DNA of 38,284 bases. It comes from Planctomycetota bacterium. Its GTDB lineage: Bacteria > Planctomycetota > J058. The stretch is taken from assembly GCA_016765095.1 (NCBI GenBank), contig JAESQQ010000178.1, positions 1 through 38,284 of the forward strand. Direction: 5' to 3'. Both the position numbers and the translations under genes were made by a program. Below are positions 3 through 16,485 of the stretch, in pieces (position 1 is the first letter of the stretch; every line of letters starts with the position of its first letter). Below the pieces are notes generated by a model. That model was given only the letters and a program-made list of their open reading frames with translations. It made no database searches and was not told where the DNA came from.

Positions 3-1688
3 TACGCCTCGAAGCTCCCCCCCGCCGAGCCGGAGGACATAAACGCGATCGTGGAGGGCGTGAACTCCATGGCCGGGGCGATCGCGACTCGCGAGGAGGA
101 GCTTCGTCAAGGCGAGGAGCAGCTCCGCTACGCGCTCTCGGCCGCCCAGGGCGGTGTCTGGGACTGGAACGTCCACGACGGAAGTGTCTACTTCTCGCAA
201 GCCTGGAAGGCGATGCTGGGCTACGAGGACGACGAAGTGGAGAACTCCTTCGAGGCCTGGGAGCAGCTCATGCACGCCGACGACCTCCCTGCCGCCCAAG
301 CCGCGATCAAGGAACACCTCGAGGGCAGGACCGACCACTACATTCTCGAGCACCGTCTGCTCTGCAAGGACGGGAACTACCGCTGGATCGCGGCCCGCGG
401 AAGGTTGATCAGTCGGACGCCTGAGGGGGATCCCCTCCGGTTCGTGGGTACGCACACCGACATCACAAAGCAGATTTCAGTGGCCGAGGAGCTGCGGAGT
501 GCGAAGGATGCAGCCGAACAGGCGACGCGCGCCAAGGACGAGTTCTTGGCCAACATGAGCCATGAGATCCGAACACCCCTCAACGGAATCCTCGGCTTGA
601 CCAACCAGCTCCTCGACACGGACTTGACCAAGACACAGCGAGACTTCGCGCAGACCGTGCAGGGATCTGGGGACTGCTTGCTCGCGATCGTGAACGACAT
701 CCTGGACTTTTCGCGGATCGAGTCGGGGGCGCTCTCGATCGTAGAAGTGCCCTTTGACCCCCGGGACATGTGCCGCCAGATCGAGCTCCTCCTGAGCAGC
801 CAGCTCGAGGAGCGAGGGCTCCGAATGAAGGTCAATGTCGCCACCGACCTCCCCCCAGCGCTGCGGGGGGACCCTGGCCGGATTCGCCAGATCCTGCTCA
901 ACCTGCTGGGGAACGCGATCAAGTTCTCGGACCGCGGTCAGATCGATTTGACCCTGACGAGCAACCTCGAGGCTGACGGACGCGCCCGACTGCGCTACGA
1001 GGTCCGGGACAGCGGAATCGGAGTCCCCGCAGACGCGATCGAGCACCTCTTCTCCCGGTTCTCGCAAGTCGACTCTTCGAGCACGCGCACCCGAAGCGGC
1101 ACCGGCCTCGGACTGGCGATCTGCAAAGGACTCGTCGAACTCATGGGCGGAGAGATCGGCGCCGAGAGTGAACTGGGGCGCGGCTCCACCTTCTGGGTCG
1201 AGCTGGTCCTCAAGCCCTGCCTAGCGATCGCCGTGGCGGCGCCTCCTCCCGCTCGAGCTGACGAGGAGCCCCTAGAGGGCCCAGGAGTGCCTAGGACTCG
1301 AGTCTTGTTGGCTGAGGACAACCGGGTGAACGCGCTGGTCGCCGAGGCCCTCCTTTACCGGCTCAACGTGGAAGTCGACACGGTCAGAGACGGGAAGGCG
1401 GCCCTCGAAGCGCTGGAGCGGGAGACCTACGGACTCGTGCTCCTAGACGTGCAAATGCCTGTATTGGACGGCTTGCAGACCGCCGCTGAGATTCGTCGGC
1501 GAGAAGAGCACGAGGGGGCGTCAGAACGAATCCCAATCGTGGCGCTGACCGCCAGCGCACTGCCCACGGATCAGCAGCGCTGCTTGGACGCCGGAATGGA
1601 CGACTTCCTCGCCAAGCCCCTGACCTTCGCCAGCCTGTCCGCCACCCTGAGTCCTTGGCTCGAGCGGCATCACGAAGCTGAGGTCTAG
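3..1688 (+). CDS. HAMP-PAS hybrid histidine kinase, 5' end outside the window
   Basis: A membrane sensor kinase that would autophosphorylate on His and pass phosphate to its own receiver. The frame is open to the window edge, and the residues before the GTG at 51 (AEPEDINAIVEGVNSMAGAI) look like the second helix of a HAMP domain, so the sensor and membrane segments lie upstream and no true start is visible. Then come a PAS_3-like domain (about 125-475), HisKA with NMSHEIRTPLNG (His codon near 561), an ATPase domain with N box (LLNLLGNAIKFSD), G1 (DSGIGVP) and G2 (GTGLGLAI), and a C-terminal receiver with acidic pocket AEDN, phospho-Asp in LLDVQMP and Lys in LAKPL. It is convergent with a binding-protein gene 24 bp away. 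Function class is certain; the signal sensed is unknown. Confidence 0.93.
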   Translation, partial: YASKLPPAEPEDINAIVEGVNSMAGAIATREEELRQGEEQLRYALSAAQGGVWDWNVHDGSVYFSQAWKAMLGYEDDEVENSFEAWEQLMHADDLPAAQAAIKEHLEGRTDHYILEHRLLCKDGNYRWIAARGRLISRTPEGDPLRFVGTHTDITKQISVAEELRSAKDAAEQATRAKDEFLANMSHEIRTPLNGILGLTNQLLDTDLTKTQRDFAQTVQGSGDCLLAIVNDILDFSRIESGALSIVEVPFDPRDMCRQIELLLSSQLEERGLRMKVNVATDLPPALRGDPGRIRQILLNLLGNAIKFSDRGQIDLTLTSNLEADGRARLRYEVRDSGIGVPADAIEHLFSRFSQVDSSSTRTRSGTGLGLAICKGLVELMGGEIGAESELGRGSTFWVELVLKPCLAIAVAAPPPARADEEPLEGPGVPRTRVLLAEDNRVNALVAEALLYRLNVEVDTVRDGKAALEALERETYGLVLLDVQMPVLDGLQTAAEIRRREEHEGASERIPIVALTASALPTDQQRCLDAGMDDFLAKPLTFASLSATLSPWLERHHEAEV

Positions 1689-1692
1689 CGCC

Positions 1693-1710
1693 GGCGACCG
1701 ACGCGTCGCC
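1693..1710. terminator. Short inverted repeat between convergent genes
   Basis: GGCGAC (1693-1698) and GTCGCC (1705-1710) form a 6-bp stem over a 6-nt loop in the 24-bp gap between two convergent stop codons. There is no T-tract, so a role as a bidirectional terminator rests on position only. Confidence 0.3.
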
Positions 1711-1712
1711 GA

Positions 1713-2888
1713 TTACTTCCGACCGAGTTTGACGAGCGTCTCGGTCGGATCAAAGGTATAGGCCCCCGTGGGCTGGGTGAGCGAGCGGAACTCGAACTTG
1801 CTCCAGTCGGCTGCGCCGATCGCGAGAGCGAACCGATCCAGGTTCTTCTTGGTGATCGGCCCCATCGGGGTGAGGAAGTTGAGCTGCTTGTCGGCGGAAT
1901 CGTTCCCCTTGAAGTAGTCATGGAGGAGGACCATTACCCAGCCGCCTTCCATGAAGTGGCCGCCGATCGTCACGTAGAGGTCGCCTGAGCGGACCGCCTC
2001 GAGAGCCTCGCGGGTCCAATCGAACCCGCCCAGGAGGACGTCCTCGCCAGGCTTTCGTCCCAGCGCGCGAACGCTCTCCATAGCACCCAGAGCCAAGGGA
2101 TCGCTCGCCCCCCACACCACCGCCGTCTCGGGGAAGCGCTTGAGCAACACCTCGGCCTTTCGCCGCCCCTCCTCGCGGCTCCAGTCCGTCGGTACGACCT
2201 GGTGCAGAACGACATCATCATGGCCAGCGACTGCCCGTTTGAGCCCGAGGACGCGTTCGCTAGAGCCGGCATCCGAGACGATCCCGGCGAGCGCGATCAT
2301 GTGGACTTTCCCGTCGGCCCCCGCCAAGCCGCGCCGCTTGGCTTCGTCAATCAGGAGGCAGGCCAGTGAGTAGCCGGCGCCGTTGCCGTCTGACTCCATG
2401 TTCCCGATCCAGTGCGTGTAACGTCCTCTCGGGACGCCGCAGCTCTCGCCTACGCCAGCGTTGACCATGAAGGCCGGGACCCCCCCCTCGTTGGCGATCT
2501 TGAGCAGGTCCGCGCCGCACTCCTTGAAGTTCTGGAACACCACTGCGTCAACGCGCCCCTCGCCAGTCGTGGCTCGACGGACCTGCTCTTTCATGAGCTC
2601 GCGGTTGTTGTTCGCCAGGTGGACTTCGAGCTTCAACCCGAGCTGCTTGGAGGCGGCCTCCATGAAGCCGAGGAAGTCCCGCCAAAAGAGGTCCTTGTGG
2701 GGAATGAACATAGCCACTCGCTTGACGCCTGAGCTGGGTGTAGCTCGCGCCGTAACGCTGGGACTGGCTGTGGGACTGGCTGTGGGACTGGCAGTGGGAG
2801 TCGTCCCGGGTGTCTTTGCCGGTTGTTGCGGACAGCCGGCGAGGGTCAGGGCCACGACCCCGAGCGCGAGCCCAGTCGGGTAGTTCAT
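1713..2888 (-). CDS. Lipoprotein periplasmic sugar-type binding protein (Peripla_BP_4-like)
   Basis: A 391-residue solute-binding protein of the ribose/galactose/LuxP/TorT fold. A lipobox (LTLAGC, Cys19) ends the signal peptide; a linker made of TASP repeats (residues about 31-45) tethers the two-lobe binding domain, which starts at VKRVAMFIPHKDLFW. Family-like segments include VDAVVFQNF, AVVWGASDPLALGAMESV and LLGGFDWT. The ATG at 2888 is supported by AAGGAGA just upstream. It lies 9 bp after the desaturase stop on the same strand, so they are probably co-transcribed. No ABC permease or ATPase is nearby, and the convergent neighbour is a HAMP hybrid kinase. That fits a sensory binding protein of the LuxP/TorT kind rather than a transporter part, but this is inference from context. 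Confidence 0.85.
   Translation of the reverse strand: MNYPTGLALGVVALTLAGCPQQPAKTPGTTPTASPTASPTASPSVTARATPSSGVKRVAMFIPHKDLFWRDFLGFMEAASKQLGLKLEVHLANNNRELMKEQVRRATTGEGRVDAVVFQNFKECGADLLKIANEGGVPAFMVNAGVGESCGVPRGRYTHWIGNMESDGNGAGYSLACLLIDEAKRRGLAGADGKVHMIALAGIVSDAGSSERVLGLKRAVAGHDDVVLHQVVPTDWSREEGRRKAEVLLKRFPETAVVWGASDPLALGAMESVRALGRKPGEDVLLGGFDWTREALEAVRSGDLYVTIGGHFMEGGWVMVLLHDYFKGNDSADKQLNFLTPMGPITKKNLDRFALAIGAADWSKFEFRSLTQPTGAYTFDPTETLVKLGRK
2760..2795. repeat. 12-bp in-frame tandem repeat, three copies
   Basis: GGGACTGGCTGT occurs twice, followed by the one-mismatch copy GGGACTGGCAGT. It encodes TASP units of the linker between lipid anchor and binding domain on the minus strand. Copy number is likely to vary between strains without breaking the frame. 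Confidence 0.85.
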
Positions 2889-2897
2889 TGTCTCTCC

Positions 2898-4031
2898 TTA
2901 GGCGGCCGCGCGGCCGCTGTCCGATTCGATCTCGTAGAGCCCTAGCTCCACGTCGTGGCGCAAGAAAGGGGTCGTCCTGATCCAGGCCATTTCGGACCAG
3001 GTCAGGGGCATCTCCTGACAGTAGTCCGGGAAGGCCTCGTGCAACGCAGCGTTGGCTTGCTTGAGGCGATACCAGGGGATCGTCGTGCAGACGTGGTGTG
3101 GCAAGTGAATGTTTATGTTCAGCACCAGCCACTCGTACCACCCTGGCAGCCGGTAGTTGTAGCTCGAGGCCACCTGCGCTCGGGTTGGCGACCAGGACTT
3201 CTCCTCGTAGAGCAGACTCTGCTCACTCGCGTGACCGATCGTGACCAAGATCGAGCCAATGATCCCCGAGAAGGCGAGCGGGATCGCGTGCAGCTTGAGC
3301 AGGGGCCAGAGTCCCCACTGCCAGTAAATGAGGGCGTAGATCGAGAGACTGCAGGCCAACATCAGCGCGCTGGAGAGGAGCAACCCCCAGCGCTCTTGGG
3401 CGTAGCGCTCCTCACCGAGCATTCCGCGCACGGCGACGGCTCGCCGGACGGTGTTGCGCCCGATCCAGAAGAAGATCCCAAATGGCAGCGCGTAGCCGAG
3501 CTTGACGGCGAAGTCGCGGCGCCAGGTGAGCGCCCCAAACTCCTCGCGGGTCACCAAGTTGGCCGCCCAATCCACGTCCTGGCCCTTGAGTTGGGTGTGC
3601 CGGTGGTGGTGATCGTGCGTCAGCTTCCAAACGCGAGGGGCGTTGAAGAGGGGGGAGAGGCAGAGCGTTCCCACGAGCCGATTGACCCAGCCTCGCCGCG
3701 AGAAGGCGTGGTGCTCTGCGTCGTGGCCGATCAGGAAGTAGCCGACGAGCACACTTCCGTAGACGAACCACATCACGACCAGCGCTGGGATCTCCCAGAG
3801 GAGAGCCCAGCCTGGATCCAAGGGCAAGACGACGAGGATCGCCAGACAAGCGGCGGCCAGGAGGCTGACTCGTGCCAGCGTCAGCCAGGCTCGCCAGGGC
3901 GTCGGCTTGAGACATTCAGGTGGGATTGCGCGGCGGACTTCGGTCAAGTTCACGCCCTTGGAGGCGAGCTGCTCGGCGATTGCCTTTGTCGGCAAGCCAG
4001 TGTGAAGACGAGTGGCTGGGGGCGGGGTCAT
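2898..4031 (-). CDS. Membrane fatty-acid desaturase / hydroxylase family protein
   Basis: A di-iron membrane enzyme that oxidises acyl chains, or possibly carotenoids. Its 377 residues carry the three histidine boxes in the expected order: HDAEHH (103-108), HDHHHRH (139-145) and HLPHH (309-313), with hydrophobic segments at about 55-75, 78-100, 180-192 and 215-265. Box spacing and the HLPHHVCTTIPWYRL segment suit the omega/acyl-lipid desaturase branch; substrate and regiochemistry cannot be told. It is the first gene of a two-gene unit with the binding protein. No strong ribosome site precedes ATG 4031. A four-codon frame (ATGCTCCTATGA, 4039-4028) overlaps the start codon and could couple initiation; this may be chance. 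Confidence 0.9.
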   Translation of the reverse strand: MTPPPATRLHTGLPTKAIAEQLASKGVNLTEVRRAIPPECLKPTPWRAWLTLARVSLLAAACLAILVVLPLDPGWALLWEIPALVVMWFVYGSVLVGYFLIGHDAEHHAFSRRGWVNRLVGTLCLSPLFNAPRVWKLTHDHHHRHTQLKGQDVDWAANLVTREEFGALTWRRDFAVKLGYALPFGIFFWIGRNTVRRAVAVRGMLGEERYAQERWGLLLSSALMLACSLSIYALIYWQWGLWPLLKLHAIPLAFSGIIGSILVTIGHASEQSLLYEEKSWSPTRAQVASSYNYRLPGWYEWLVLNINIHLPHHVCTTIPWYRLKQANAALHEAFPDYCQEMPLTWSEMAWIRTTPFLRHDVELGLYEIESDSGRAAA

Positions 4032-4134
4032 AGGAGCATCTGAACCAGCGGGGCCCTGCCAAGCAAGCGCCCAGGGAGAGCTGGCGCGCGAGCCGGCCTC
4101 GTGACTCCCGTTCTGTTTCCAGAGTGAGTACGAA

Positions 4135-4164
4135 AGCAGCCCAGGGCTGAGGCCCTGGGCTGCT
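4135..4164 (-). terminator. Strong hairpin terminator after the cytochrome gene
   Basis: A perfect 13-bp stem (AGCAGCCCAGGGC at 4135-4147 with its complement at 4152-4164) closes a 4-nt loop, 23 bp after the cytochrome TAG. On the minus strand it is followed by TTCG, a weak U-run. It also separates the cytochrome from the desaturase operon, whose start is about 100 bp further on. Confidence 0.75.
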
Positions 4165-4187
4165 CGAGCGAATGGAGGTTTCGTTCG

Positions 4188-6173
4188 CTAAAGCGACTTC
4201 AGGTACTCGATCAGGTCCATTCGCTCACGAGCCGAGAGCCCGCGCCCGATCACGCCGGGGCCGCGTGCGCCGTCGCGGAACTCGTGGCCCGCGTTCGAGT
4301 TTCCGATCTTGCTCGTGTCGAGCAGGAACGTCCCAGGAGCGTCGGGCAAGCTCTTGAGTCCGACTTTCTCCGCGTCAAAGACCTGCTTGGGGCCGAGGCG
4401 GAAGGTCGCCTTCCGCTCAGCCACGGGGCTCAAGAGCTCGTAGAGGTTGAGGACCGAGCCGTTGTGGAGGAAGGGACCCGTGGCCCAGACACCGTCGAGC
4501 GGACGAGCGCGATAGGCCAAGGGCGCGCGGTAGTCGTTGGGCCGACCCCCCGTGATCTCCCTCTCCTGGGCGGGCGTCAAGCGGAGCTCGGCGAACTGAC
4601 GGTTCATGACGCCGTCGGTGAAGGTCTTGAGCGCGTCGCCGCCCGAGATCACGCCTAGGTTCAAGCTGCCCGTGTCGACCTGCCGGAGGCTGAACAGGGT
4701 CGCCGCCATGGGGTCGGTGCCAATGTCTGAGAGTCCGTAGACCTTCACGTCGTAGTTGCGCACTCCGTAGGCGTCGGGGGCGGTCATCCCCAAGTCGTGG
4801 CAGCTGGCGCAGTTTTGGCGATAGAGCCGGCGACCGCGGCGCCACTGGCGAGCCTCTATGAACCCAGGCCACTTCGGCGCAGCGATCGCAGCGCGGGCCT
4901 TCTCGGCCTCGTGCAGCACGCGAATGTCTGCTCCGGTCTTATACAGGTCGGGGTCGGTCGGGGTGGTCACGATCGGGGTCGCGCCACTGGCCATGGCCGC
5001 AGCCAGGTTCCGCCCCAGGGGCTGAGTGATCGAGCCGTTGTATTGGACCCAGTTGAGCTTGGTGATTCCCCACATGTGAGGCAAGCGGACGGGACCGTTG
5101 GCGATCGTCAGGTTGCTGAGGGCCAAGCCGCCGAACAGGTTGTTGCCGCCTCCCGTCAGGGCGTCGAGGCGGCCGAAGCCCTCCTCGACTGCGGTGTCGA
5201 GGCCGAACGCCTTCGCGGCGTCGCTCTTGGCCTTGCCCGCTTGGAGCAAGCCACCGAGGTGTTGTCCGAGAGCGGCGGCCGCAGCGGGATCGTGGTTCGC
5301 GCCAAGCACCCGAGTCGCGAAGCGCTGGAACTTGGCCGGATCCATGGCCGTGGCTCCCATGGCCTGGCCGAGGGTCGTGCGGAACGAGCCGAGGTTGACG
5401 TTCGCGCGTCCGCCTTCAATCCGCAGGGGTTTGCCGTTGAACTCGACTTCAGCCGTGTGACAGGCCGCGCAGTTGAGGCCGACGGTCTTGACCTGCGTGA
5501 CCGGGTCGGTCTTGGTCGCGAAGCCGACGGGGAGCCGATCTGGGTTGGGGGCGCCGCTGGTGTCTGCGAGGAAGCCGAAGGCCGCCATTGAGTTCTCTCC
5601 GCTCAGCAGCTCCTGGCTGGTCGGGCGCTCGAGCGCCATGAACCAGGCGTAGGGGAGCGTCACGATCCCAATGTCGCTCCGGTGCCAGGCCGCTCGTTGG
5701 GCGGCGGTCCAGCCTGGATCGGGAGCGGTCGGATCCAAGGTTCCCGTGGCCGTGGCCACCGCGATCCTGCGATGCGAAGCGCGGAGGGTGACGGTTGCGG
5801 TGTCCTGCGTGACGACGATCTGCAGCTCCTGGCGGTGGGATCCCCGCACAGCCACTCGGGCGCGTCCGTTGCGAAGCCGACCCCGCCCGGTGAGTTGAGC
5901 GGTGGTTCCATCCGCGAAGGTCATTCGGAGCCTGAACCGGGCCATGCTGCTCGGGAGCCGGTAGCGCACTTGCAGCGAGCCTGTGAAGGAGCCGACCCGG
6001 GCGTAGGTTCCCGTGAGCACGTAGTTGACGGTTCGAGTGCTCGTCGACGTGCGGTGACGCTCTTGGGCGCTCCCGGCTGGCTCGTTCGCGAAGGCAGGGG
6101 CGGCGACCATAGCGGCCAGGCCGATCCCGAGGGCTAGAGTTTGGGCGGGGAGTCCTCTTGGGGCTCGCTTCAT
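4188..6173 (-). CDS. Exported di-heme c-type cytochrome (RoxA / cytochrome c peroxidase-like superfamily)
   Basis: A 661-residue exported heme protein. The start at ATG 6173 is fixed by GAGG five bases upstream and by a signal peptide (MKRAPRG..., cleavage near AFA-NE at 29-31); an upstream in-frame start would put 22 residues before it. Residues about 45-145 form a beta-rich domain with charged strands. Two heme-binding motifs follow: CAACH (235-239) and CASCH (455-459), about 220 residues apart, and the C-terminal part has the FLHNGSVLNLYELL segment common in di-heme peroxidase-like proteins. Size and heme spacing remind me of the rubber-oxygenase RoxA group rather than short CcpA/MauG enzymes, but oxygenase or peroxidase activity cannot be assigned. 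It is monocistronic, ended by the hairpin at 4135-4164, and divergent from cheB. Confidence 0.85.
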   Translation of the reverse strand: MKRAPRGLPAQTLALGIGLAAMVAAPAFANEPAGSAQERHRTSTSTRTVNYVLTGTYARVGSFTGSLQVRYRLPSSMARFRLRMTFADGTTAQLTGRGRLRNGRARVAVRGSHRQELQIVVTQDTATVTLRASHRRIAVATATGTLDPTAPDPGWTAAQRAAWHRSDIGIVTLPYAWFMALERPTSQELLSGENSMAAFGFLADTSGAPNPDRLPVGFATKTDPVTQVKTVGLNCAACHTAEVEFNGKPLRIEGGRANVNLGSFRTTLGQAMGATAMDPAKFQRFATRVLGANHDPAAAAALGQHLGGLLQAGKAKSDAAKAFGLDTAVEEGFGRLDALTGGGNNLFGGLALSNLTIANGPVRLPHMWGITKLNWVQYNGSITQPLGRNLAAAMASGATPIVTTPTDPDLYKTGADIRVLHEAEKARAAIAAPKWPGFIEARQWRRGRRLYRQNCASCHDLGMTAPDAYGVRNYDVKVYGLSDIGTDPMAATLFSLRQVDTGSLNLGVISGGDALKTFTDGVMNRQFAELRLTPAQEREITGGRPNDYRAPLAYRARPLDGVWATGPFLHNGSVLNLYELLSPVAERKATFRLGPKQVFDAEKVGLKSLPDAPGTFLLDTSKIGNSNAGHEFRDGARGPGVIGRGLSARERMDLIEYLKSL

Positions 6174-6287
6174 GAATTCCTCGACGTGTTTGGGGGTCAG
6201 CGCATGGCACGTCCGGCCTGCGCAGCATTCATGACGCACCGCGCAAAAAAACGGGCCGAGGGGTGGTTCTTCGTAACCTCATTTGTT

Positions 6288-6572: not shown

Positions 6573-7646
6573 ATGAGTTCGCCCCACCGAATCCTAGTCG
6601 TTGACGATTCGAGCGCGATGCGGCAGCTGCTCAAGCTCGCGCTCACCGACCTTCCGGATGTAGAGGTCGTGGGCACCGCGTCCAGCGGCGACCTCGCGTT
6701 GCGGCGAATCGAGTTTCTCCGCCCTGACTTGATCACGCTCGATATCGAGATGCCGGGGCTCGGGGGCTTGGAGACCCTGTCGCAGATCCGTGAGGATCAC
6801 CCCACCATCCGGGTTCTGATCGTCAGTAGCCTGACCAAGCGTGGCGCGCTCGTGACCCTCGACGCCCTCTCCCGCGGGGCAAGCGACTATGTGTCGAAGC
6901 CACAAGTCAGTTCGCCCGAGGAGGGAGTCCTGGCTTTGCGGAAGGAGCTCGTCCCTCGAATCCGCTCGCTCTGCGGCCCCTCCGAGGACCTACCTAGGCA
7001 CGTCGTGGAGCAGGCACGACGCACACCGACCGCCACCTGGAGGATCAGATCCCGACGCCCGGAGGTCATCGTCGTTGCCTCCTCCACGGGGGGGCCGCCG
7101 GCGCTAGGGAAGTTTCTGTCAGGGTTGCCCGAGAGTTTTCCGTGTCCGATCCTCGTCGTCCAGCACATGCCGAAGGTGTTCACGGGTCCCTTCGCCGAGC
7201 GCCTCAACAGTCAGATGCCGCTCCACGTGCGTGAGGCCGTGGCGGGGGCTAAGCCCCTCGCCGGTCAGGTCTGGATCGCCCCAGGCGACTCGCACCTCTT
7301 GCTCGAGCGTGGTGGCGACGGGCTACGGCTCGCGCTCAGCGACGCTCCACAGGTCAACTTCTGCCGACCTGCCGCCGATCTGCTCTTCGAGTCCTCTGCC
7401 GACGCCTGTCCGGGCCAAGTCCTAGGAGTTGTCCTGACCGGAATGGGGTGCGACGGCTCGGCCGGAGCCGCTCGCATTCGCGAAGACGGGGGACGAGTCC
7501 TCGTTCAAGACGAGGCAACCTCGGTGGTGTGGGGCATGCCCGGCAACGTAGCTCGCGCGGGTCACGCCAGCGAGATCCTGCCCCTCGAACGACTCGCGGC
7601 TCGCCTCGTCGAACTGGCCCCCCGCACCTGCTCCTTGGACACATAA
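6573..7646 (+). CDS. cheB: CheB, chemotaxis receptor glutamate methylesterase/deamidase
   Basis: Removes methyl groups from receptor glutamates and so adapts the chemosensory pathway. Its 357 residues comprise an N-terminal receiver with DD at 11-12, phospho-Asp57 in LDIEMP and Lys in VSKP, then a CheB methylesterase domain with the catalytic triad Ser171 (ASSTGG), His198 (VQHMP) and Asp294 (GMGCDG). ATG 6573 is chosen because the receiver begins directly after it; the frame is open far upstream, but that part is not protein-like and has no ribosome site. It is transcribed towards the rest of the che genes and stops 7 bp from the stop of the kinase-CheX gene, so it is controlled apart from the main operon. 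Confidence 0.95.
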   Translation: MSSPHRILVVDDSSAMRQLLKLALTDLPDVEVVGTASSGDLALRRIEFLRPDLITLDIEMPGLGGLETLSQIREDHPTIRVLIVSSLTKRGALVTLDALSRGASDYVSKPQVSSPEEGVLALRKELVPRIRSLCGPSEDLPRHVVEQARRTPTATWRIRSRRPEVIVVASSTGGPPALGKFLSGLPESFPCPILVVQHMPKVFTGPFAERLNSQMPLHVREAVAGAKPLAGQVWIAPGDSHLLLERGGDGLRLALSDAPQVNFCRPAADLLFESSADACPGQVLGVVLTGMGCDGSAGAARIREDGGRVLVQDEATSVVWGMPGNVARAGHASEILPLERLAARLVELAPRTCSLDT

Positions 7647-7653
7647 AGCTGGT

Positions 7654-9333
7654 CTAGGCAGGCAAGACCGCGAGGCCGATCAACTCGCTGCGCCAGCGAC
7701 CGCCTACCGCGATGAGCGCACCTTCGATAGCCTCGCCCCCAGGAACGAGGGGCAGCGACATTTCTGTGGGCTGGGGGAGAAGCTTCTTGAGCTGCCCCGC
7801 GACGATGTTTGCGATCTCCGCCACCGCGTCTTCAAGATCTTCTTGTTCCAGTTCAGAGGCGGCGAGGCCTAGGAAGGAAGCCCCCAGGCGCCGCGCGACC
7901 CCTTCGCTGCACTCGACCAGAATGCGTCCATTCCAGGCGCCCTCGAGGTCGATCGCGGCGCGAGTTGCGGCCTTGGGCCAGGCGTCAGGCATCGAGATCG
8001 GGTCCAGGTCCACTCCCAGCATGGTTCCTACCTCTTGCAAGATGCGGAACACCTCGGGGGGGGCCAAGCTGCGCAGGTGTGATCCAAGCCGCTGGTTTGC
8101 CGAGAGAGCGTGGAGGAGAGCCGCTGCGTTTCGATATCTTTGGTCGGCCTTCAAGTGAACGAGCCTTGCCAGCACGGCACCCAAGGCAGGGTCAAGCTCG
8201 GACGGGATCGGCGGAGATACGTCGCTAAGCCGTCTGATCAGCGCGATCCCGGTTAGCTCTCGGAAGGGGCGCTCGCCTGTGGCCGCAAAGAGGAGGGTCA
8301 CCCCCAGAGAGTAGAGGTCCGAGCGGTGATCCACCTTCCTCCCGAGCATGTATTCAGGAGCCATGTAGCCGGCCGAGCCACAGATCTCATGAGGACCCGT
8401 TAGCCCCTCGTAGCTCGGGTCGCGCGAGAGCCCAAAGCCGACCAGCACAGGCTGGCGAATGTCCCCCTCGCGGAGAATGACGTTTTGGGGGTTGAGGTCT
8501 CGGTGAACGATTTGGGCCGCGTGAATGTCGACGAGCGCGCGTGCGGCTCCTCCCAGAAACTGGATCAACTCTCGCTCCTCGAGAGGGCCGTGCTCGGCTA
8601 CGTATTCGGTCAAGGTAGGGCCCGGGACGTATTCGAGGGCAAGCCAAGAGTGTCGCCCCTGCTCACCGCAATCGCGGAGGCGCGCCACGTACGGCGAGCA
8701 GAGCGCAGACAAGCAGGCGACCTCGCCCTCAAAGCGCTTGCGCTGGTCGGGCGAGGGGGTCGGCACGACCTTGAGCGCCACTCGACGCTCGTGGGCTGGG
8801 TCCCAGCCTTCGAGCACCACTCCGTAGCCCCCACGTCCGATCACGCGCAGGACCTCGTATCCCCCCAGGGCTCGAGGCACGTTCCAACTCGCCGTCCCGA
8901 CCACCGGGTCGTGGGCGAGACCTTTCTGCCGAACACGCAGGGCGTGGAGACACCTCCCGACCAGCTCCTCGAGCGAGAAGGGTTTGGTCAGGCAGTCGCT
9001 CGCCCCCGCTTCTAGCGCTGCGACCACGTCTTCGCTCCTGTCCTGTGAGCAGAGGGCTACGATCGGGAACCGATCCGCGTCTTTCGAGGACTGTATGGAG
9101 CGGATCAGGTCTAGAGCCTCTGGGCTCGCCACGGCAACGACAGCAAGGGCGGGGGTCTCTCGCGCCAAGACGGCGCTCGCGCCCGCACAATCGTGGGCGC
9201 TGAGGACCAGCGCTCCACGCTTGCCGAGCGCGCGTCCGATCACGCGGCGAGCAGTCCGATCTCCGTCCATGACCAGCGCCCGCCAGCCCTTTGGCAGGAG
9301 GGTCGTGGCGGTCTCCTCCTTGGGAGGCGGCAC
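7654..9333 (-). CDS. Receiver-Ser/Thr protein kinase-CheX fusion protein
   Basis: A 559-residue three-part signalling protein. Residues 16-130 are receiver-like: MDGD (22-25) and Lys117 (TKPF) remain, but the phospho-acceptor position is hydrophobic (LAVVAVAS). Residues 158-410 are a protein kinase with GRGGYG loop, Lys188 (VALK), Glu204, HRDLNPQN (277-284) and APE, but GFG (299-301) replaces DFG, losing the Mg-binding Asp. Residues about 430-559 resemble the CheX/CheC phosphatase fold, with the expected E..N pair (Glu506, Asn509 in EIANIVAG). It is the last gene of the che operon, starting with GTG 6 bp after the receptor gene. I infer a scaffold or regulator that dephosphorylates a receiver through CheX; whether the kinase is active is open. 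Confidence 0.82.
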   Translation of the reverse strand: MPPPKEETATTLLPKGWRALVMDGDRTARRVIGRALGKRGALVLSAHDCAGASAVLARETPALAVVAVASPEALDLIRSIQSSKDADRFPIVALCSQDRSEDVVAALEAGASDCLTKPFSLEELVGRCLHALRVRQKGLAHDPVVGTASWNVPRALGGYEVLRVIGRGGYGVVLEGWDPAHERRVALKVVPTPSPDQRKRFEGEVACLSALCSPYVARLRDCGEQGRHSWLALEYVPGPTLTEYVAEHGPLEERELIQFLGGAARALVDIHAAQIVHRDLNPQNVILREGDIRQPVLVGFGLSRDPSYEGLTGPHEICGSAGYMAPEYMLGRKVDHRSDLYSLGVTLLFAATGERPFRELTGIALIRRLSDVSPPIPSELDPALGAVLARLVHLKADQRYRNAAALLHALSANQRLGSHLRSLAPPEVFRILQEVGTMLGVDLDPISMPDAWPKAATRAAIDLEGAWNGRILVECSEGVARRLGASFLGLAASELEQEDLEDAVAEIANIVAGQLKKLLPQPTEMSLPLVPGGEAIEGALIAVGGRWRSELIGLAVLPA

Positions 9334-9339
9334 GCCTTG

Positions 9340-11325
9340 CTATCTCTCGAGGACGGCGACGCTCGCTTCGTGCCCTTGCAGCCTTCCGACGAGCCCCTCA
9401 AGGCTCGACGCCAAGCCGGTGATGACCTCAGCTGCTTGGAGGGTCTCGTTGGCAGCGGTCGACGTGTTGCCCGCTGCGTTGGTCACTGCCTCGATCTTGG
9501 TCGCGATCTGGCCCGTTCCTTGGGCGGCTGCCCGAACACTGCGGGAGATCTCAGCAGTCGTGCTGCTTTGCTGTTCCACGGCCGTCGCGATCGCGGTTTG
9601 GAGGTCGGCGATCTTGTCAATCACCTCGGAGATCCCGGCGATCGCTTGCACGGCTTCCCGGGTGTCGCCCTGAATCGCCTCGATCTTGGAGCTGATGTCC
9701 TCGCTCGCGGTCGCGGTCTCCTTCGCCAACTCCTTGACCTCGTTGGCAACGACGGCGAAGCCCTTGCCTGCTTCGCCCGCACGAGCCGCCTCGATCGTGG
9801 CATTGAGTGCCAGGAGCTTGGTCTGCTGAGCGATCGAGGTAATGACCTTCATCACGTTCCCGATCTCGACGCCGCTTTGGCCGAGCCTCGCGATCGTGTC
9901 TTTGGTGAGCTGCGCCCCGTCAACGGCCTGGCCAGCCACGCTGGCCGCCGTGGTCGCGTTCTTGGCGATTTCCCGAATGCTCGCGTTGAGCTCCTCGGCA
10001 GCCGCCGCGACGGCTCGCACGCTGGAATCTACCTCCTGAGCAGCCGCCGCGACTTCTTGGCTCAGCTCTCGCGTCGAGGCAGCCTCCCCGCTCATTTGGC
10101 TGCCGATTCCCCCGAGCTGGTCACAGGACACGGTGATCTCGGCCGTGTTCTCAGTCAGCTCCTTGGCGACCTGGAGCATTGACTCACGCATCAAGACCTG
10201 CTCGGTCACGTCCTGAGCGAACTTGACGACCTTGAAGGGATTGCCGTCCAACCCCAGGATCGGGGTGTAGGTCGCCTGGATGTAGACTTTGTCACCCGAT
10301 CGATTGATCCGCGTGAATTCGCCTGAGCGGAACTCGCCCCGGTTCAAGGAGTCCCAAAACTCCCTGTATTTCGCGCTGCGGCGCGTCTCCTCGTCCACGA
10401 ACATGCTGTGGTGGCGCCCCTCGACGGCTGCCGCGCGGTAGCCGAGGACGTTCAAGAACAGGTCGTTGGCCTTCACGATCGTCCCGTCAAGCTTGAACTC
10501 GATCACGGCTTGGGACCGGTGGATTCCGTCTATTTGTCCCGCGAAGTCAACATTTCGGGTCTTCTCCGCCGTGATATCCGTGGCGTATTTGACGACCTTG
10601 ATCGGTCGACCCCGGAGGTCTCGAATCGGGGTGTAGGTCGCTTGGATCCACACGTCTCGACCGTCCTTGGAGACCCGGCAGAACTCGCCCTGCTGGTGCT
10701 CCCCGCGATTCAGCTTGGCCCAGAACTCCTTGTAGTCGGCGCCCCCATGGGCCCCGGCCTCGACGAAGAGCCGGTGGTGCTGCCCGACCACCTCTTCGCT
10801 CCGGTAGCCCAGCGTGTCCAAGAAGTTCTGGTTGGCCTGCAAGATCGTGCCGTCCATCGCGAACTCGATCACGGCTTGCGACCGGCTGATCGCCTCGATT
10901 TGCCCGGAGAAATTCATGGCGCGGGCCTTCTCCGCCGTGATATCCGTGGCGTATTTGACGACCTTCAAGAGGCGCCCCGTCTTTGCGTCACGAAGCGGCG
11001 TGTAGGTCGCCTGAATCCAAACGTCCTTCCCCCCCTTGCCGAGCCGACGGAACTCACCCTGCTGGTGATCGCCCCGATTCAGGCGATCCCAGAAGTCCGA
11101 ATACTCCGCGCTTCGCTGATACTCGTCTTCGACGAAGATCCGGTGATGCTTACCCAAGATTTCGGCGCTGGAGTAGCCCATGGCTTGCAAAAAGATGTCG
11201 TTCGCGCGCAAAATAGTCCCGTCAAGTGAGAACTCGATCACACCTTGAGTTCGCTCGATGGCGGCCTTAATGGCCTCCAGCTCTGCAACGTCCGCCTCGG
11301 ACTTACCCTTTCCTTGATCAGCCAT
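9340..11325 (-). CDS. Soluble methyl-accepting chemotaxis protein with three PAS domains
   Basis: A cytoplasmic chemoreceptor of 661 residues with no membrane segment. Three tandem PAS domains (about 25-133, 147-255 and 269-377) are near-copies at roughly 122-residue spacing, each with GTI(L/V)xAN...F, YxxFWxxLNRG and VWIQATYTP-like blocks and each closing with a DIT/DVT segment. A classical signalling domain follows (about 395-650) with hairpin tip [20 protein letters not shown]. It would control CheA from an internal cue such as redox state or a ligand; PAS resemblance to BdlA/Aer2-type receptors is from memory. It lies between cheR and the kinase-CheX gene and is probably their direct partner. 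Confidence 0.95.
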
Positions 11326-11397: not shown

Positions 11398-12225
11398 TCA
11401 CTCGTCCAACACGTAGACCACGCTTCCGGCCACGTGTCGGGGGATCCACTGCGAGTCGAGGAGGAGTGTGGTCTCGGGGCTGCCGAGGAGGAGGAATCCG
11501 TCCGGACGCAGCGCCCGGCGCATTCGCTCGAGGACCCTGATCTTCTCTTCGATATCGAAGTAGATCAGGACGTTGCGGACCAAGATCACGTCGAAGAGGG
11601 GGGACGGAGGCCAAGGACCCAGCAGGTTGATCCGCTCGAAGCACACTCGCTCTCGATAAGAGGCCTTGAACTCGAACTCTCGCTCGTGGGAGTCGAAATA
11701 CTTCAGCAACAAGGCCCCAGGCAGGCCCCGGTTGACTTCGTACCGTGAATAGCGAGCGAGGCGGGCGCGGTCCAGCGCCTCCGTGGAGACGTCTGAGGCG
11801 AGCAACTCGACCTCCCAGCCTCCCAGCCGCTCCTTGAAGTGCTCTTCGAGCAGGAGGACCAAGCTGTAGGGTTCCTGCCCGTAGGAGCAAGCTGCTGACC
11901 AAATCCGGAGCGTGCGCTCGGACTGCCGGCGTTCGATCAGCTCGGGGATCAACTCCTCGCGGAGGGCCTGAAAGGGAGCCCAGTCGCGAAAGAACGAGGT
12001 CTCGTGGTTGAGGATCGACTCGACGACCTCCTCCTGCAGAGAGGGGTCGCCCATCGCTCGCGCGACCAACTCGTCGCCCGTCCCCGGGTGACGCTTGAGG
12101 AGATTCGTCAAGCGAAAGCCGACGTAGTGCTCCTTGTCCTCTCCGAGGCTGAAGCCGGTCGCCGCTTGGACCCAGTCCCGCACGACGCGGTAGCTCGCGG
12201 GGGAGATGTAAGGCACGTCTGTCAA
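11398..12225 (-). CDS. cheR: CheR, chemotaxis receptor methyltransferase
   Basis: Transfers methyl groups from S-adenosylmethionine to receptor glutamates. The 275 residues show an all-helical N-terminal domain, then the family blocks NHETSFFRD, WSAACSYGQEPYSL (SAM loop), LLASDVSTEAL and VRNVLIYFD. The start is uncertain: TTG at 12225 lies 9 bp after the upstream stop and gives MTDVPYISP; GTG at 12216 is nearly as good. Neither has a strong ribosome site. It is followed after 72 bp by the receptor gene. Confidence 0.94.
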   Translation of the reverse strand: MTDVPYISPASYRVVRDWVQAATGFSLGEDKEHYVGFRLTNLLKRHPGTGDELVARAMGDPSLQEEVVESILNHETSFFRDWAPFQALREELIPELIERRQSERTLRIWSAACSYGQEPYSLVLLLEEHFKERLGGWEVELLASDVSTEALDRARLARYSRYEVNRGLPGALLLKYFDSHEREFEFKASYRERVCFERINLLGPWPPSPLFDVILVRNVLIYFDIEEKIRVLERMRRALRPDGFLLLGSPETTLLLDSQWIPRHVAGSVVYVLDE

Positions 12226-12234
12226 CCGACGCGC

Positions 12235-12999
12235 TCAACTCGCCATGCCCAGCAGGCGTAGCTTCTCGACGATCGCCTGCTGATCGAAGGGCTTGAGGAT
12301 CACCTCGTCTGCGCCGGCTTCCAAGACCCGTCGAACCTGGTCCATATCGGTTTCGGAGGTCACGAGCACAATCGGCATTCGTGCCAGGGCCGGCTCCCGC
12401 CCTCGACACTCAATGACGAACTCTAGGCCGTTCATTTCGGGCATGTGGAGATCGACGAGCGCGACTCGGACAGGTTCGCTTGAAGCCTCGAGTTGGGCCA
12501 AGGCTTCCTTCCCGTGCACGGCCGTCTCGACGTCGTATCCAAGCGAAGACAGGATTCGGCTCAGGAGGCGACGCATGGCTCGCGAGTCGTCGATCACCAT
12601 CGCGCGACCGCGCGTGAGGGCTGGGCGCTCTATCAAGTGGCTGCGAACCTGACGCACCAATCGTACCGGGTCGAAGGGCGAGGCCTTGCGAATGAAGCCG
12701 TGCGCCCCGCAGTCTTCGACGAGCTTCTCGAGCGCTTCGGACTCAAGACCGGAGAAGAAAACAAGCTGGCACCCCGCCGCGAAATCGAAGCGCTGCAGAG
12801 TAGACACGATCTGCCCCCCACCAAGACCAGGCATCCCGACGTCCATGAGCACGAGGTCGGGGCACTCTTGCCGAAGCAGCGTCGCGGTCTCGATCGGGTT
12901 GGTGGTCGTCACGACTCGATAACCAGCGCGCTGGAGCGCGCTAGAGGCCAACTCCAGGACTGCTTTGCTGTCGTCGACGATCAGGATGGTGGCGGCCAT
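12235..12999 (-). CDS. Dual-receiver (REC-REC) response regulator
   Basis: A 254-residue protein made only of two receiver domains. The first (4-120) has DD, phospho-Asp in LVLMDVGMP and Lys in FIRKASP; the second (about 130-252) has DD, VALVDLHMP and ILKPF, so both look phosphorylatable. The ATG at 12999 overlaps the cheW stop (TAATG), implying translational coupling; the upstream extension of the frame is not protein-like. It is a paralogue of the REC-REC gene at 15721-16485, and the two flank cheA-cheW. With no single-domain CheY here, these are the likely phosphate acceptors of CheA, one perhaps acting as a phosphate sink. Confidence 0.92.
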   Translation of the reverse strand: MAATILIVDDSKAVLELASSALQRAGYRVVTTTNPIETATLLRQECPDLVLMDVGMPGLGGGQIVSTLQRFDFAAGCQLVFFSGLESEALEKLVEDCGAHGFIRKASPFDPVRLVRQVRSHLIERPALTRGRAMVIDDSRAMRRLLSRILSSLGYDVETAVHGKEALAQLEASSEPVRVALVDLHMPEMNGLEFVIECRGREPALARMPIVLVTSETDMDQVRRVLEAGADEVILKPFDQQAIVEKLRLLGMAS

Positions 13000-13463
13000 T
13001 AGGCGATTGCCCCTTCGACGGCAGCGGTCGCGAAGGCCCGCTCGATCAACCCGGAAGCGTCGAGTTCGACCAACAGGCGATGCTCGAGCTTGAAGACCGC
13101 AGAACACACCGAGCGCAGGTCCTCGCGGAGGGTCGCCGGAGGGTCCTCCCCAGCTGCGTCTACGACGCCGACGACGTCCCCGATGTCATCCACGAGCAGG
13201 CTGAATCCCTCCCCGCGCAGGACCAAATTCATAGGCGCTTGGCCTGGGGGTCCGGCCTTCATGCCTAGGATCGTCCGGAGGTCTAGGGCGGTCACGATCT
13301 GCCCGCGGAGATTGATCAGCCCCCGGACTGCGGTGGGAGCCAGGGGAATACGGGTCAAGGCTTGAGCCCGCAGGACCTCCTGGACGTCGGCCACTGGGAG
13401 CGCTAGGTAGAGGTCGTCTAGGGCAAAGGTACAGAGCTGTCGCTCGCTGGTGTCTTCGCTCAT
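12999..13463 (-). CDS. cheW: CheW coupling protein
   Basis: Bridges CheA to the chemoreceptor. Its 154 residues form a single CheW domain with FALDDLYLALPVADVQEV, IPLAPTAVRGLINLRGQIV and ALDLRTILG. The ATG at 13463 overlaps the cheA stop as ATGA and is preceded by GGAG at 7 bp, which decides this start over a TTG four codons upstream. It overlaps the next gene by one base. The receptor, CheA and CheW are thus made from one transcript. Confidence 0.95.
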   Translation of the reverse strand: MSEDTSERQLCTFALDDLYLALPVADVQEVLRAQALTRIPLAPTAVRGLINLRGQIVTALDLRTILGMKAGPPGQAPMNLVLRGEGFSLLVDDIGDVVGVVDAAGEDPPATLREDLRSVCSAVFKLEHRLLVELDASGLIERAFATAAVEGAIA

Positions 13464-15719
13464 GCGCCGCTCCAACTCAAGAGGGGTCGACTGTCCGCTT
13501 TGGCGAGGAGGATCTCGAGGTCGAGCACCTCTGCGATCTGGCCGTTGATAACGGCTGTTGAGCTGACTCCTGGACGCGTGCTGGGTCCCGAGTCGCAGGT
13601 GGACAAATCCGTAGAGACGATATCGGTGACTTCATCGACGACGACTCCCACCAGCTGCCCAGCAGACTCGTAGACCACCACACTCAGGGTGTCAACTTCA
13701 GCTATGGATCTCGGAGCCCGGGGCTGGCGGGTGCTGTAGCCCGAGGCCGCGAGATCGCTCTGGGACTCCGCAAAGAGCAGATCCTCAAGGAAGAGAAGGC
13801 GCAGGATCTGGCCGCGATACTGGACCAACATCCCTCCTCCGGCGAGTTCGACCTCATCACGTGAGAACTCCTCTAGGCGCGCGACCGATGAGAGTTGGAG
13901 GGCCAAGACCCCGCCCCCTCGCTCTCGGAGGAGCAGATAGGGTTGCTCATTGCTCGTGGCTTGAGCAACGCTGGCGCCGCGGCCCAGACCCTCAGAGCTA
14001 ATCACCGCGAGTTCGCAATGACGGCCAATGCCAGCCACGTCCAAGATCAAGGAGACGCGTCCGTCTCCAAGTACCGTCGCGCCCGCATAGAGGGAGAGAT
14101 GCCGAAGCTGGCGCCCGAGGGGTTTTACGACGATTTCCTCGGTGTCACCGATGTGTTCGACGATGAGGCCAAAGGAGCCGGCGTCGTGCTGAACCACGAC
14201 CACGTTGACCTCTTCGGTTCGGACGTGCTTCGAAGAGCCGAGCTGAAGCGCCCCTGCCAAGTCGACCAAGGGCAAAAGCACGTCTCGGAGCCGGTGGAAC
14301 GGCGCCTGATCAATGTACTCCACTTCTTCAGGCTTCAAGCACACCAACTCTTGGAGGTTGGCCTGCGGAATCGCGTAGCGCTCCTGCGCGCTCGTGACCA
14401 AGAGCGCCGGCACGATCGCCAAGGTCAACGGGATTCGCATTGCGAACGTCGTTCCTCGCCTCAGCGGCGAGTCGATCTCGATCGAGCCGCCGATCAACTC
14501 GATGTTGGTCTTGACGACATCCAGCCCGACTCCGCGTCCCGAGAGGTTGGTCACTCGGTTGGCGGTGGAGATCCCAGGCCTGAACGCAAGCTGGAGAAGC
14601 TCTCGATCGCTGAGGCGCTCGACCTGCGCACTCCCCAGGAACCCCGCCTCTACCGCCCGACGCGCGAGGGCTGCGGGGTCGATTCCGCGCCCGTCGTCGC
14701 TAACGACCACGTGCACGTAGCCGCCCTCATGAAACGCGCGCAGGCGCAAGGTCCCGTGCGCTGGCTTGCCTTGACTCCTCCGCTCTTCGGGTCGCTCCAA
14801 ACCGTGGTCAATCGCGTTGCGGATCAAGTGCACGAGCGGGTCGCCGATCGCCTGGAGTACGCTCCGGTCGAGTTCGGTGTCGTCGCCCTCGGTTTCGAAC
14901 ACGACCTCCTTCTGACAGGATTGAGCCACGTCCCGCACGTAGCGGGGCAGCTTGTTCCAGAGATGGCTGATCGGCTGCATGCGGGTCTTCATGACCTGCT
15001 CTTGCAGTTCGCTCGTGATGAAGCCTAGGCGCTGGCTGGCGGCCATCAGGATCGCGTCGTTGCGGGAGCTCGTCTCGCGTTGAAGTTGGTTGCGAACCAG
15101 GACCAACTCGCCGACGGTGTCCATCAAGCGGTCGAGGAGGTCGACGTCGAGGCGAACGGTCCTGTCTTCTCCGCCCAAGACGGTTTCGGGGCCAGTCTCC
15201 CCTCGCTCTGGTGGCTCTGGGTCCTCTAGGGGTGGGGTCAGCTCCGCCGCTGGCGCAGGGGGCTCGACCTCGACTGACGGCGCCGGAGGTGGATCCTCGA
15301 GGGGAGCTGCGGGAGCGCTCCTGGCAGACTTCGGTTCCGGGCAAAAGGCTGCGATTTCGGCACGCAGTTCGACGAAGTCCTCTTCTCCCTCGTCGCGGTC
15401 TGACTCGACTCGCCCAAGGACTGCGCGCACCGCGTCGGAGAGGGCCAGCAAGACGTTGATCTGCTCCGTCGTCGACTCCAGGCCTTCGTCGCGGATCGCG
15501 CACAGGAGGGACTCGCCGCAGTGCGCGAGACTCTCGAGGCGCGTATAGCCAGCCCAAGACCCCAGCTGTCCCCTTCAGGGTGTGCAGGACACGAAGCATG
15601 CCTCCCACCATGGAGACGTCGCTCGAGTCATTCTCGAACGCGATCAGGTCTAGGTCGAGACGCTGGAGGCCCTCATGACTCTCGGCCAGGAACTCTCGAA
15701 TGACCGGCTCCAGGTCCAC
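13460..15719 (-). CDS. cheA: CheA, chemotaxis histidine kinase, frameshifted in the HPt domain
   Basis: The kinase core of the pathway. Domains: histidine phosphotransfer (LRVLHTLKGTAG, about 15690-15480), Pro/Glu-rich linker, dimerisation helix pair (LLDRLMDTVGELVLVRNQL), ATPase with HLIRNAIDHGLE, VVSDDGRGID and GRGVGLDVV, then two tandem CheW-like domains. No P2 domain is evident. The frame breaks at a GGCT duplication (AGCCAGCC on the plus strand, 15547-15554): before it GVLG, after it YTRLESLAHCGES in another frame. Removing one 4-bp copy joins them smoothly and gives 751 residues. As written, the kinase core has no good independent start: the first candidate is TTG near 15451. GTG 15719, one base after the upstream stop, is the likely start. 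Either a real lesion or an assembly error. Confidence 0.88.
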
Positions 15720-15720
15720 G

Positions 15721-16485
15721 CTAGGCCCCCATAGCCCGGATGCGGTCAACGATCGTCGCCTTGTCCACCGGCTTGTTCAGGTAGCCACAAGCGCCCGCCG
15801 CGAGCACGGCTTGGATTCGCTTCGCATCGCGGACGGCGGTGACGAGCAACACAGGAATGTGCTGGAAGTCTGGCTGCTTGCGCATCGCCACGATCAACTC
15901 CAGCCCGTCCATTTCCGGCATCTCCAGGTCGACGATCGCGAACTGGGGCTTCTTCTCTCGCAGATGCTCCAGCGCTTCGCGCCCGTCTGCCGCGCAGGTG
16001 ACGTCGTAGCCTTGCTCACGAAGCATCAGCGCGAGCAAGATTCGGATCGCTCGGGAGTCGTCGACGACGAGGACGTCTGGCCGGACGGTGCTCGTGAGCG
16101 GAGCTAAGAGCAGGCGGCCGACGGCGGCCACCAGGGACTCTGGGCTCAGAGGCGCCGCCTTGTGAATGTAGCCGTGAGCTCCAACCGACTCCGCCCGGAT
16201 GGCTAGCTCGGCCTCGCTGACCGACGCTGAGAAGAGCACCATTCGGATCCCCTCGGTGGAGCCGAAGCGGTTCAGGGTTGCTACCACGTCTGTGCCTGAG
16301 ATCGCAGGCATTTGGATGTCCATCAGGACCATGTCGGGCGCCTCGGTGCGAACGAGGCCAGCGACTGCGATCGGATTGGTCGAGGTCACGACGCTGTAGC
16401 CCGCCTCTTCGAGGATCCCACCCGCAAACGCGAGGATCGCCTTGCTATCGTCGACGATGAGGATTTTCTCCCTGCTGCGGCTCAT
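15721..16485 (-). CDS. Dual-receiver (REC-REC) response regulator, first gene of the che operon
   Basis: Two receivers in 254 residues, closely similar in plan to the paralogue at 12235-12999. The first has VDDSKA, VLMDIQMP and IHKAAP; the second has VDDSRA, AIVDLEMPEMDG and LNKPV, so both phospho-Asp residues are kept. ATG 16485 follows GAGG at about 9 bp. It ends one base before the cheA GTG. There is no output domain, so it must act by protein contact, for instance on a motor, the kinase-CheX protein or CheA itself. Confidence 0.93.
   Translation of the reverse strand: MSRSREKILIVDDSKAILAFAGGILEEAGYSVVTSTNPIAVAGLVRTEAPDMVLMDIQMPAISGTDVVATLNRFGSTEGIRMVLFSASVSEAELAIRAESVGAHGYIHKAAPLSPESLVAAVGRLLLAPLTSTVRPDVLVVDDSRAIRILLALMLREQGYDVTCAADGREALEHLREKKPQFAIVDLEMPEMDGLELIVAMRKQPDFQHIPVLLVTAVRDAKRIQAVLAAGACGYLNKPVDKATIVDRIRAMGA

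Follow-up and report, generated by a model that had tools for sequence, protein, structure and literature searches.

A REC-kinase-CheX fusion at the end of a planctomycete chemosensory operon: a predicted phosphatase joined to a likely pseudokinase

What does a protein that carries a receiver, a Hanks-type Ser/Thr kinase and a CheX-like domain in a single chain do at the end of a chemosensory operon? The question is raised by a gene, here called RKX, in a contig of a Planctomycetota bacterium; the window, i.e., the whole stretch of DNA that was analysed, is 38,284 nt long. RKX is encoded on the minus strand; its GTG start is at 9333 and its stop codon ends at 7654. The initial annotation had placed it within a chemosensory operon and directly after the receptor gene, and both statements hold: 6 bases separate the end of the receptor gene from the start of RKX, and the genes for CheA, CheW, CheR and the REC-REC proteins lie on the same strand in the order REC-REC, CheA, CheW, REC-REC, CheR, three-PAS receptor and RKX. 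The features of this region are as follows.

6573-7646, plus strand: CheB (REC and methylesterase), convergent with RKX
7654-9333, minus strand: RKX, the REC-kinase-CheX fusion gene, 559 aa, GTG start
9340-11325, minus strand: chemoreceptor with three PAS domains and MCPsignal, 661 aa (Pfam)
11398-12225, minus strand: CheR methyltransferase; CheX comes directly after it in most relatives compared
12235-12999, minus strand: REC-REC protein 1, candidate client, both acceptor Asp and Lys kept
12999-13475, minus strand: CheW (Pfam)
13460-15451, minus strand: CheA body, with dimerisation, HATPase and two CheW-like domains (Pfam)
15539-15725, minus strand: Hpt domain of CheA, in a frame that differs from that of the body (apparent frameshift)
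15721-16485, minus strand: REC-REC protein 2, candidate client, both acceptor Asp and Lys kept

The apparent frameshift between the Hpt domain and the body of CheA (near 15540, minus strand) is either real or an assembly error. Beyond CheB, the minus strand carries genes for a RoxA-like cytochrome c and a fatty acid desaturase, at 4188-6239 and 2898-4031, respectively. A partial FliM-like match (42.1 bits) was found in G000 (contig C743:14049-14381, L130), so that a flagellar motor is a possible output of the che system.

The proposed three-module architecture was borne out, as the receiver, kinase and CheX modules of RKX each gave a Pfam match above the curated cut-off. GC content and third-position GC are even over the three modules and close to the values of the neighbouring genes, and therefore give no hint of an assembly join. 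With a frame that is open throughout, an even composition and che genes on both sides, an assembly chimera is ruled out. RKX is represented by one sequence from a draft genome, and a search for a close orthologue, for selection tests on the fusion, found none.

The C-terminal module was examined by the domain search and structure prediction that the initial annotation had suggested for its CheC/CheX assignment.

7657-8064, minus strand: CheX phosphatase domain, about residues 424-559 (Pfam, alignment, profile and fold)
7807-7818, minus strand: CheX catalytic pair E506-x-x-N509 (DAVAEIANIVAG) (CheX alignment)

Pfam CheX (PF13690) matches residues 459-533 with 53.2 bits, against a cut-off of 27. 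Folded alone, this part of the protein gave a predicted structure with a mean pLDDT of 91.2, and the 12 best fold matches in the PDB were all solved CheX or CheX/CheC-like structures, including 3hzh, the CheX-CheY complex of B. burgdorferi. A profile made from a 34-sequence CheX alignment of relatives had the solved CheX proteins 3hm4, 3h4y and 6vpw as its best matches. As far as prediction goes, these matches rule out a fold other than CheC/CheX. The Glu and Asn that had been recognised as the pair of the CheC/CheX/FliY phosphatases are E506 and N509, and both are invariant in the 34-sequence alignment. In these phosphatases, the water that attacks the phospho-Asp is oriented by the Asn, and the receiver Lys is the partner of the acidic residue (PMC3035606). 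Compared with most CheX proteins, RKX has a shorter segment after the catalytic helix, which might affect dimerisation. The statement that CheZ and a separate CheC are absent also stands: no CheC, CheZ or further CheX was matched in the genome, making the CheX of RKX the sole one in an assembly that is 84% complete.

The receiver and kinase modules present a different picture.

8959-9276, minus strand: receiver domain (residues 20-125), a pseudo-receiver (Pfam 42.0 bits, motifs, pLDDT mostly above 90)
8110-8859, minus strand: Hanks Ser/Thr kinase domain (residues 159-408) (Pfam, motifs and fold matches)
8482-8505, minus strand: catalytic loop HRDLNPQN, with Asn281 for the Lys of HRDxK (motif comparison)
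8431-8439, minus strand: GFG instead of DFG (Gly299) (motif comparison, 54 kinases)

The match to Response_reg exceeds the cut-off of 30.2 bits. A phosphorylatable receiver has an acceptor Asp together with an acidic pair and a Lys; in RKX the acceptor is Ala67, the acidic pair reads D23-G24 and the Thr/Ser site is Cys95, with Lys117 kept. This loss of the acceptor is shared with ten other REC-kinase receivers, the Asp being present in 29 of the 40 compared. The kinase domain scores 134 bits against a Pkinase cut-off of 31.7, and the bacterial kinases PknA/PknB are among its best fold matches. Much of what marks an active kinase is present in addition to profile and fold, namely the Gly loop, beta3 Lys188, alphaC Glu204 and HRD Asp279, along with Asn284 and the APE motif; the metal-binding DFG Asp and the catalytic-loop Lys are missing. 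The former is found in 53 of 54 related kinases, RKX alone having Gly, and the latter in 44 of the 54. In a full-length model, the receiver and kinase were mostly predicted with high confidence, with a pTM of 0.55 at which the arrangement of the domains is not fixed, and the CheX part, for which the model had no aligned rows, came out poorly; an alignment that mixed RKX with REC-kinases and CheX was left out of the analysis, as its single-domain CheX rows appeared to fall on kinase columns.

With Ala67 in the receiver and GFG in the kinase, neither module looks fit for normal phosphotransfer. The initial annotation overlooked that both modules lack key catalytic residues; its idea that eukaryote-like kinase signalling and control of a two-component phosphate pool are joined in one polypeptide is not supported in that form. 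The retention of structural kinase motifs alongside the loss of catalytic ones points to a preserved fold and possible nucleotide binding, rather than to general decay. The kinase of RKX is likely to be a pseudokinase, for which nucleotide binding is plausible. A sequencing error as the source of the GFG is unlikely, because several separate catalytic positions are altered in two domains while structural ones are kept. RKX is thus best read as a phosphatase that is tethered or gated by a pseudo-receiver together with a pseudokinase or an atypical kinase of the CASK type.

CASK has GFG and is active, which makes the loss of kinase activity in RKX uncertain. If the RKX kinase were still active, whether in the manner of CASK, independently of metal or with another metal, it could phosphorylate its own CheX domain, a REC-REC protein or another Che protein, and RKX would be a true kinase-phosphatase hybrid. 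It does have an undamaged Gly loop, beta3 Lys and HRD Asp. CASK combines GFG with an intact Gly loop (PMC2639636, Table 1), kinase activity is said to be best predicted by an intact Gly loop and VAIK Lys (PMC4718504), and the independent CheX-kinase fusions described below mostly keep DFG/DLG and HRD. However, the change of the DFG Asp to Gly is confined to RKX among the kinases compared and comes with loss of the catalytic Lys; VRK3, which likewise has GFG, is inactive, although its Gly loop is also degraded (PMC2639636), and CASK is an atypical kinase that binds ATP only in the millimolar range (PMC4718504). An active RKX kinase is therefore considered unlikely, although it is the strongest of the alternatives.

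REC-kinase paralogues are numerous in the genome that carries RKX, and the RKX kinase falls inside a lineage-specific REC-kinase clade (bootstrap/SH-aLRT 100/99). The members of this family resemble RKX in having a receiver followed by a Hanks kinase, but differ in that none of those examined has a CheX, and in that the DFG Asp is kept throughout and the acceptor Asp mostly so. A cluster of several REC-kinase genes in the same genome (L071, L072; contig C531) includes some genes without the receiver acceptor Asp and with an intact kinase. In eight che loci of relatives, CheX is a separate gene in every case. It follows cheR directly in seven of them, including that of a same-genus genome (L052), and in the eighth (L044) it lies one receiver gene further away. 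RKX therefore takes the place of the operon's own phosphatase, and the simplest history is that the cheX of the operon was fused behind a REC-kinase gene, with ordinary kinase catalysis lost afterwards. A same-order genome offers another kinase-che link, without fusion: a Hanks kinase gene next to those for CheW and CheA, all on one strand (L175:2-4753, minus strand).

Alternatively, the REC-kinase part could be a decaying passenger, i.e., a redundant copy joined to cheX by deletion or rearrangement, with CheX alone of importance. The catalytic residues lost in two modules would fit this, as would the somewhat long branch of RKX in the kinase tree (0.95, against a median of 0.58) and the occurrence of the architecture in only one of 12 genomes of its class, the others having no full-length relative of RKX. 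Against it, the 559-codon frame is open and uniform in coding composition, the kinase has lost specific catalytic motifs and kept its structural ones, both folds are predicted with high confidence, and che operons elsewhere hold CheX-kinase fusions of independent origin. A passenger is accordingly judged improbable, and a shade less likely than an active kinase.

The initial annotation had called for a search for other REC-kinase-CheX fusions and asked whether they always sit in che clusters. The survey covered one phylum, with 392 genomes scanned using the CheX of RKX and a CheX profile searched against two further classes (154 and 23 genomes). The full RKX protein gave only one match against genome contigs, a kinase from an unrelated genome. 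Many of the long 'open frames' around CheX matches were non-coding extensions, and the check for kinases took in, among the matches listed, most CheX matches whose frame stays open over about 350 aa or more. The CheX of RKX alone, used as a query, overlooked the seven fusions of family f14, in another class of the same phylum, that the profile searches recovered, a second CheX profile run over the 392 genomes adding two of the seven. Their frames have CheX at the N-terminus and a Hanks kinase at the C-terminus.

L133:1511-3703, plus strand: f14 CheX-kinase fusion
L134:2568-4577, plus strand: f14 CheX-kinase fusion
L135:964-2418, minus strand: f14 CheX-kinase fusion
L136:2660-4324, plus strand: f14 CheX-kinase fusion
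L137:3549-5219, plus strand: f14 CheX-kinase fusion
L172:961-2820, plus strand: f14 CheX-kinase fusion
L173:7379-9223, minus strand: f14 CheX-kinase fusion

Pfam was run on five of the f14 fusions and placed CheX above the cut-off in four (L135 with 27.4 bits), L134 reaching 26.9 against 27. Four of the seven directly follow a receiver gene, and two are found in complete che operons (L141 = G220, L142 = G079). The Glu/Asn pair is kept in five and changed in L172 and L173. The catalytic motifs of the kinases (DFG/DLG, HRD) are intact in most, L133 being a clear exception with HGN for HRD. Like RKX, the f14 proteins hold CheX and a Hanks kinase in one polypeptide, but with CheX first, the kinase last and no receiver in the chain. 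RKX differs from the f14 fusions both in domain order and in kinase clade, their kinases forming a clade of their own (98/85), and a shared origin is ruled out by the different supported clades of the kinases. Separate clades and opposite orders indicate that the CheX-kinase fusion arose at least twice. Among the 12 genomes of its class, RKX is the only protein of its kind.

Other CheX fusions were seen in the survey. CheX and a receiver are fused, in both orders, at L023:1393-2460 (plus), L055:5868-6812 (minus), L093:973-2238 (minus) and L096:655-1782 (plus), and L041 has two CheX/receiver fusions in tandem (1258-3858 and 3408-4772, both plus). CheW-CheX proteins occur in two f45 genomes (L046:3106-4599, plus; L047:4001-5146, minus). 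A single frame at L107:709-2844 (minus) has CheX followed by Hpt and a CheA kinase domain, resembling reported CheA-CheX fusions.

That the CheX of RKX is a receiver-binding adaptor rather than a phosphatase, recruiting the REC-kinase module to phosphorylated REC-REC proteins, is very improbable: CheX naturally binds phosphorylated receivers and some kinase-fused CheX domains of the other lineage (L172, L173) have lost the catalytic pair, but RKX keeps it and no other phosphatase of the CheX, CheC or CheZ families was found in its genome at 84% completeness.

The reading of RKX as the operon's phosphatase, with a REC-kinase part that docks and gates as a pseudo-receiver and pseudokinase, is held to be somewhat better than an even prospect. 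The CheX domain would act on a phosphorylated receiver by placing Glu506 and Asn509 in its active site, and would thereby speed the loss of the phosphate that CheA had put there. Its clients would most likely be the two REC-REC proteins, as the initial annotation had supposed; the proposal is a reasonable one, since the acceptor Asp and the active-site Lys can be read from the sequences of all four of their receivers, with the clients themselves, like the phosphatase activity and the gating, being inferred. The N-terminal part, derived from the lineage-specific REC-Ser/Thr-kinase family, would no longer be an ordinary receiver or Mg-dependent kinase. The pseudo-receiver may serve as a binding surface and the kinase fold as a switch that binds a nucleotide or partner and so positions or gates CheX, both acting through binding and not through phosphotransfer.

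A wider proposal is possible, and is put forward more tentatively. Kinase-coupled CheX proteins may form an undescribed class of chemosensory phosphatase with at least two origins, in which a Hanks kinase or pseudokinase responds to a signal (nucleotide, partner or phosphorylation) and determines the CheX activity by which the pool of chemotaxis phosphate is drained; in RKX, a switch of pseudo-receiver and pseudokinase would have this role. The second lineage, with its opposite order and working-looking kinases, suggests that kinase modules have been recruited repeatedly to control the CheX switch. If this is correct, then RKX is a bacterial pseudokinase controlling a two-component phosphatase. 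In two independent lineages with opposite domain orders, a kinase fold is built into the phosphatase that ends a chemosensory signal. It thus becomes directly testable whether a eukaryote-type kinase, or one that has lost catalysis, can set the rate at which a chemotaxis signal decays, and RKX itself is a clear candidate for a bacterial pseudokinase with an enzyme output that can be measured.

Where Hanks kinases are known to act on two-component systems, they mostly do so by phosphorylating regulators or histidine kinases. The initial annotation knew of no described system with the architecture of RKX; the literature on CheX with Hanks or Ser/Thr kinases, in a search that covered mainly open-access papers, held no report of such a fusion in either order, although CheX-kinase fusions do exist beyond this locus. 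The solved CheX proteins (PF13690; T. maritima 1squ/1xko and B. burgdorferi 3hzh) share with RKX the predicted fold, the Glu-x-x-Asn helix and a place in a che operon, but are single-domain proteins of about 150-170 aa, whereas the CheX of RKX is the C-terminus of 559 aa, after a receiver and a kinase. CheA-CheC/CheX fusions have been described in Leptospirae (PMC10782961), and these, like RKX, combine a CheX-type phosphatase with a kinase in a chemosensory pathway; their partner is the histidine kinase CheA, and that of RKX a Hanks kinase. For the separate modules there are precedents of function, though not relatives of the whole protein. FrzS has no acceptor Asp in its pseudo-receiver, as in RKX, and yet works, through its output face and without Asp phosphorylation (PMC1974792). 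CASK shares its GFG with the RKX kinase (PMC2639636, PMC4718504), and allosteric regulation or scaffolding is the role of pseudokinases such as STRAD and TRIB (PMC4718504).
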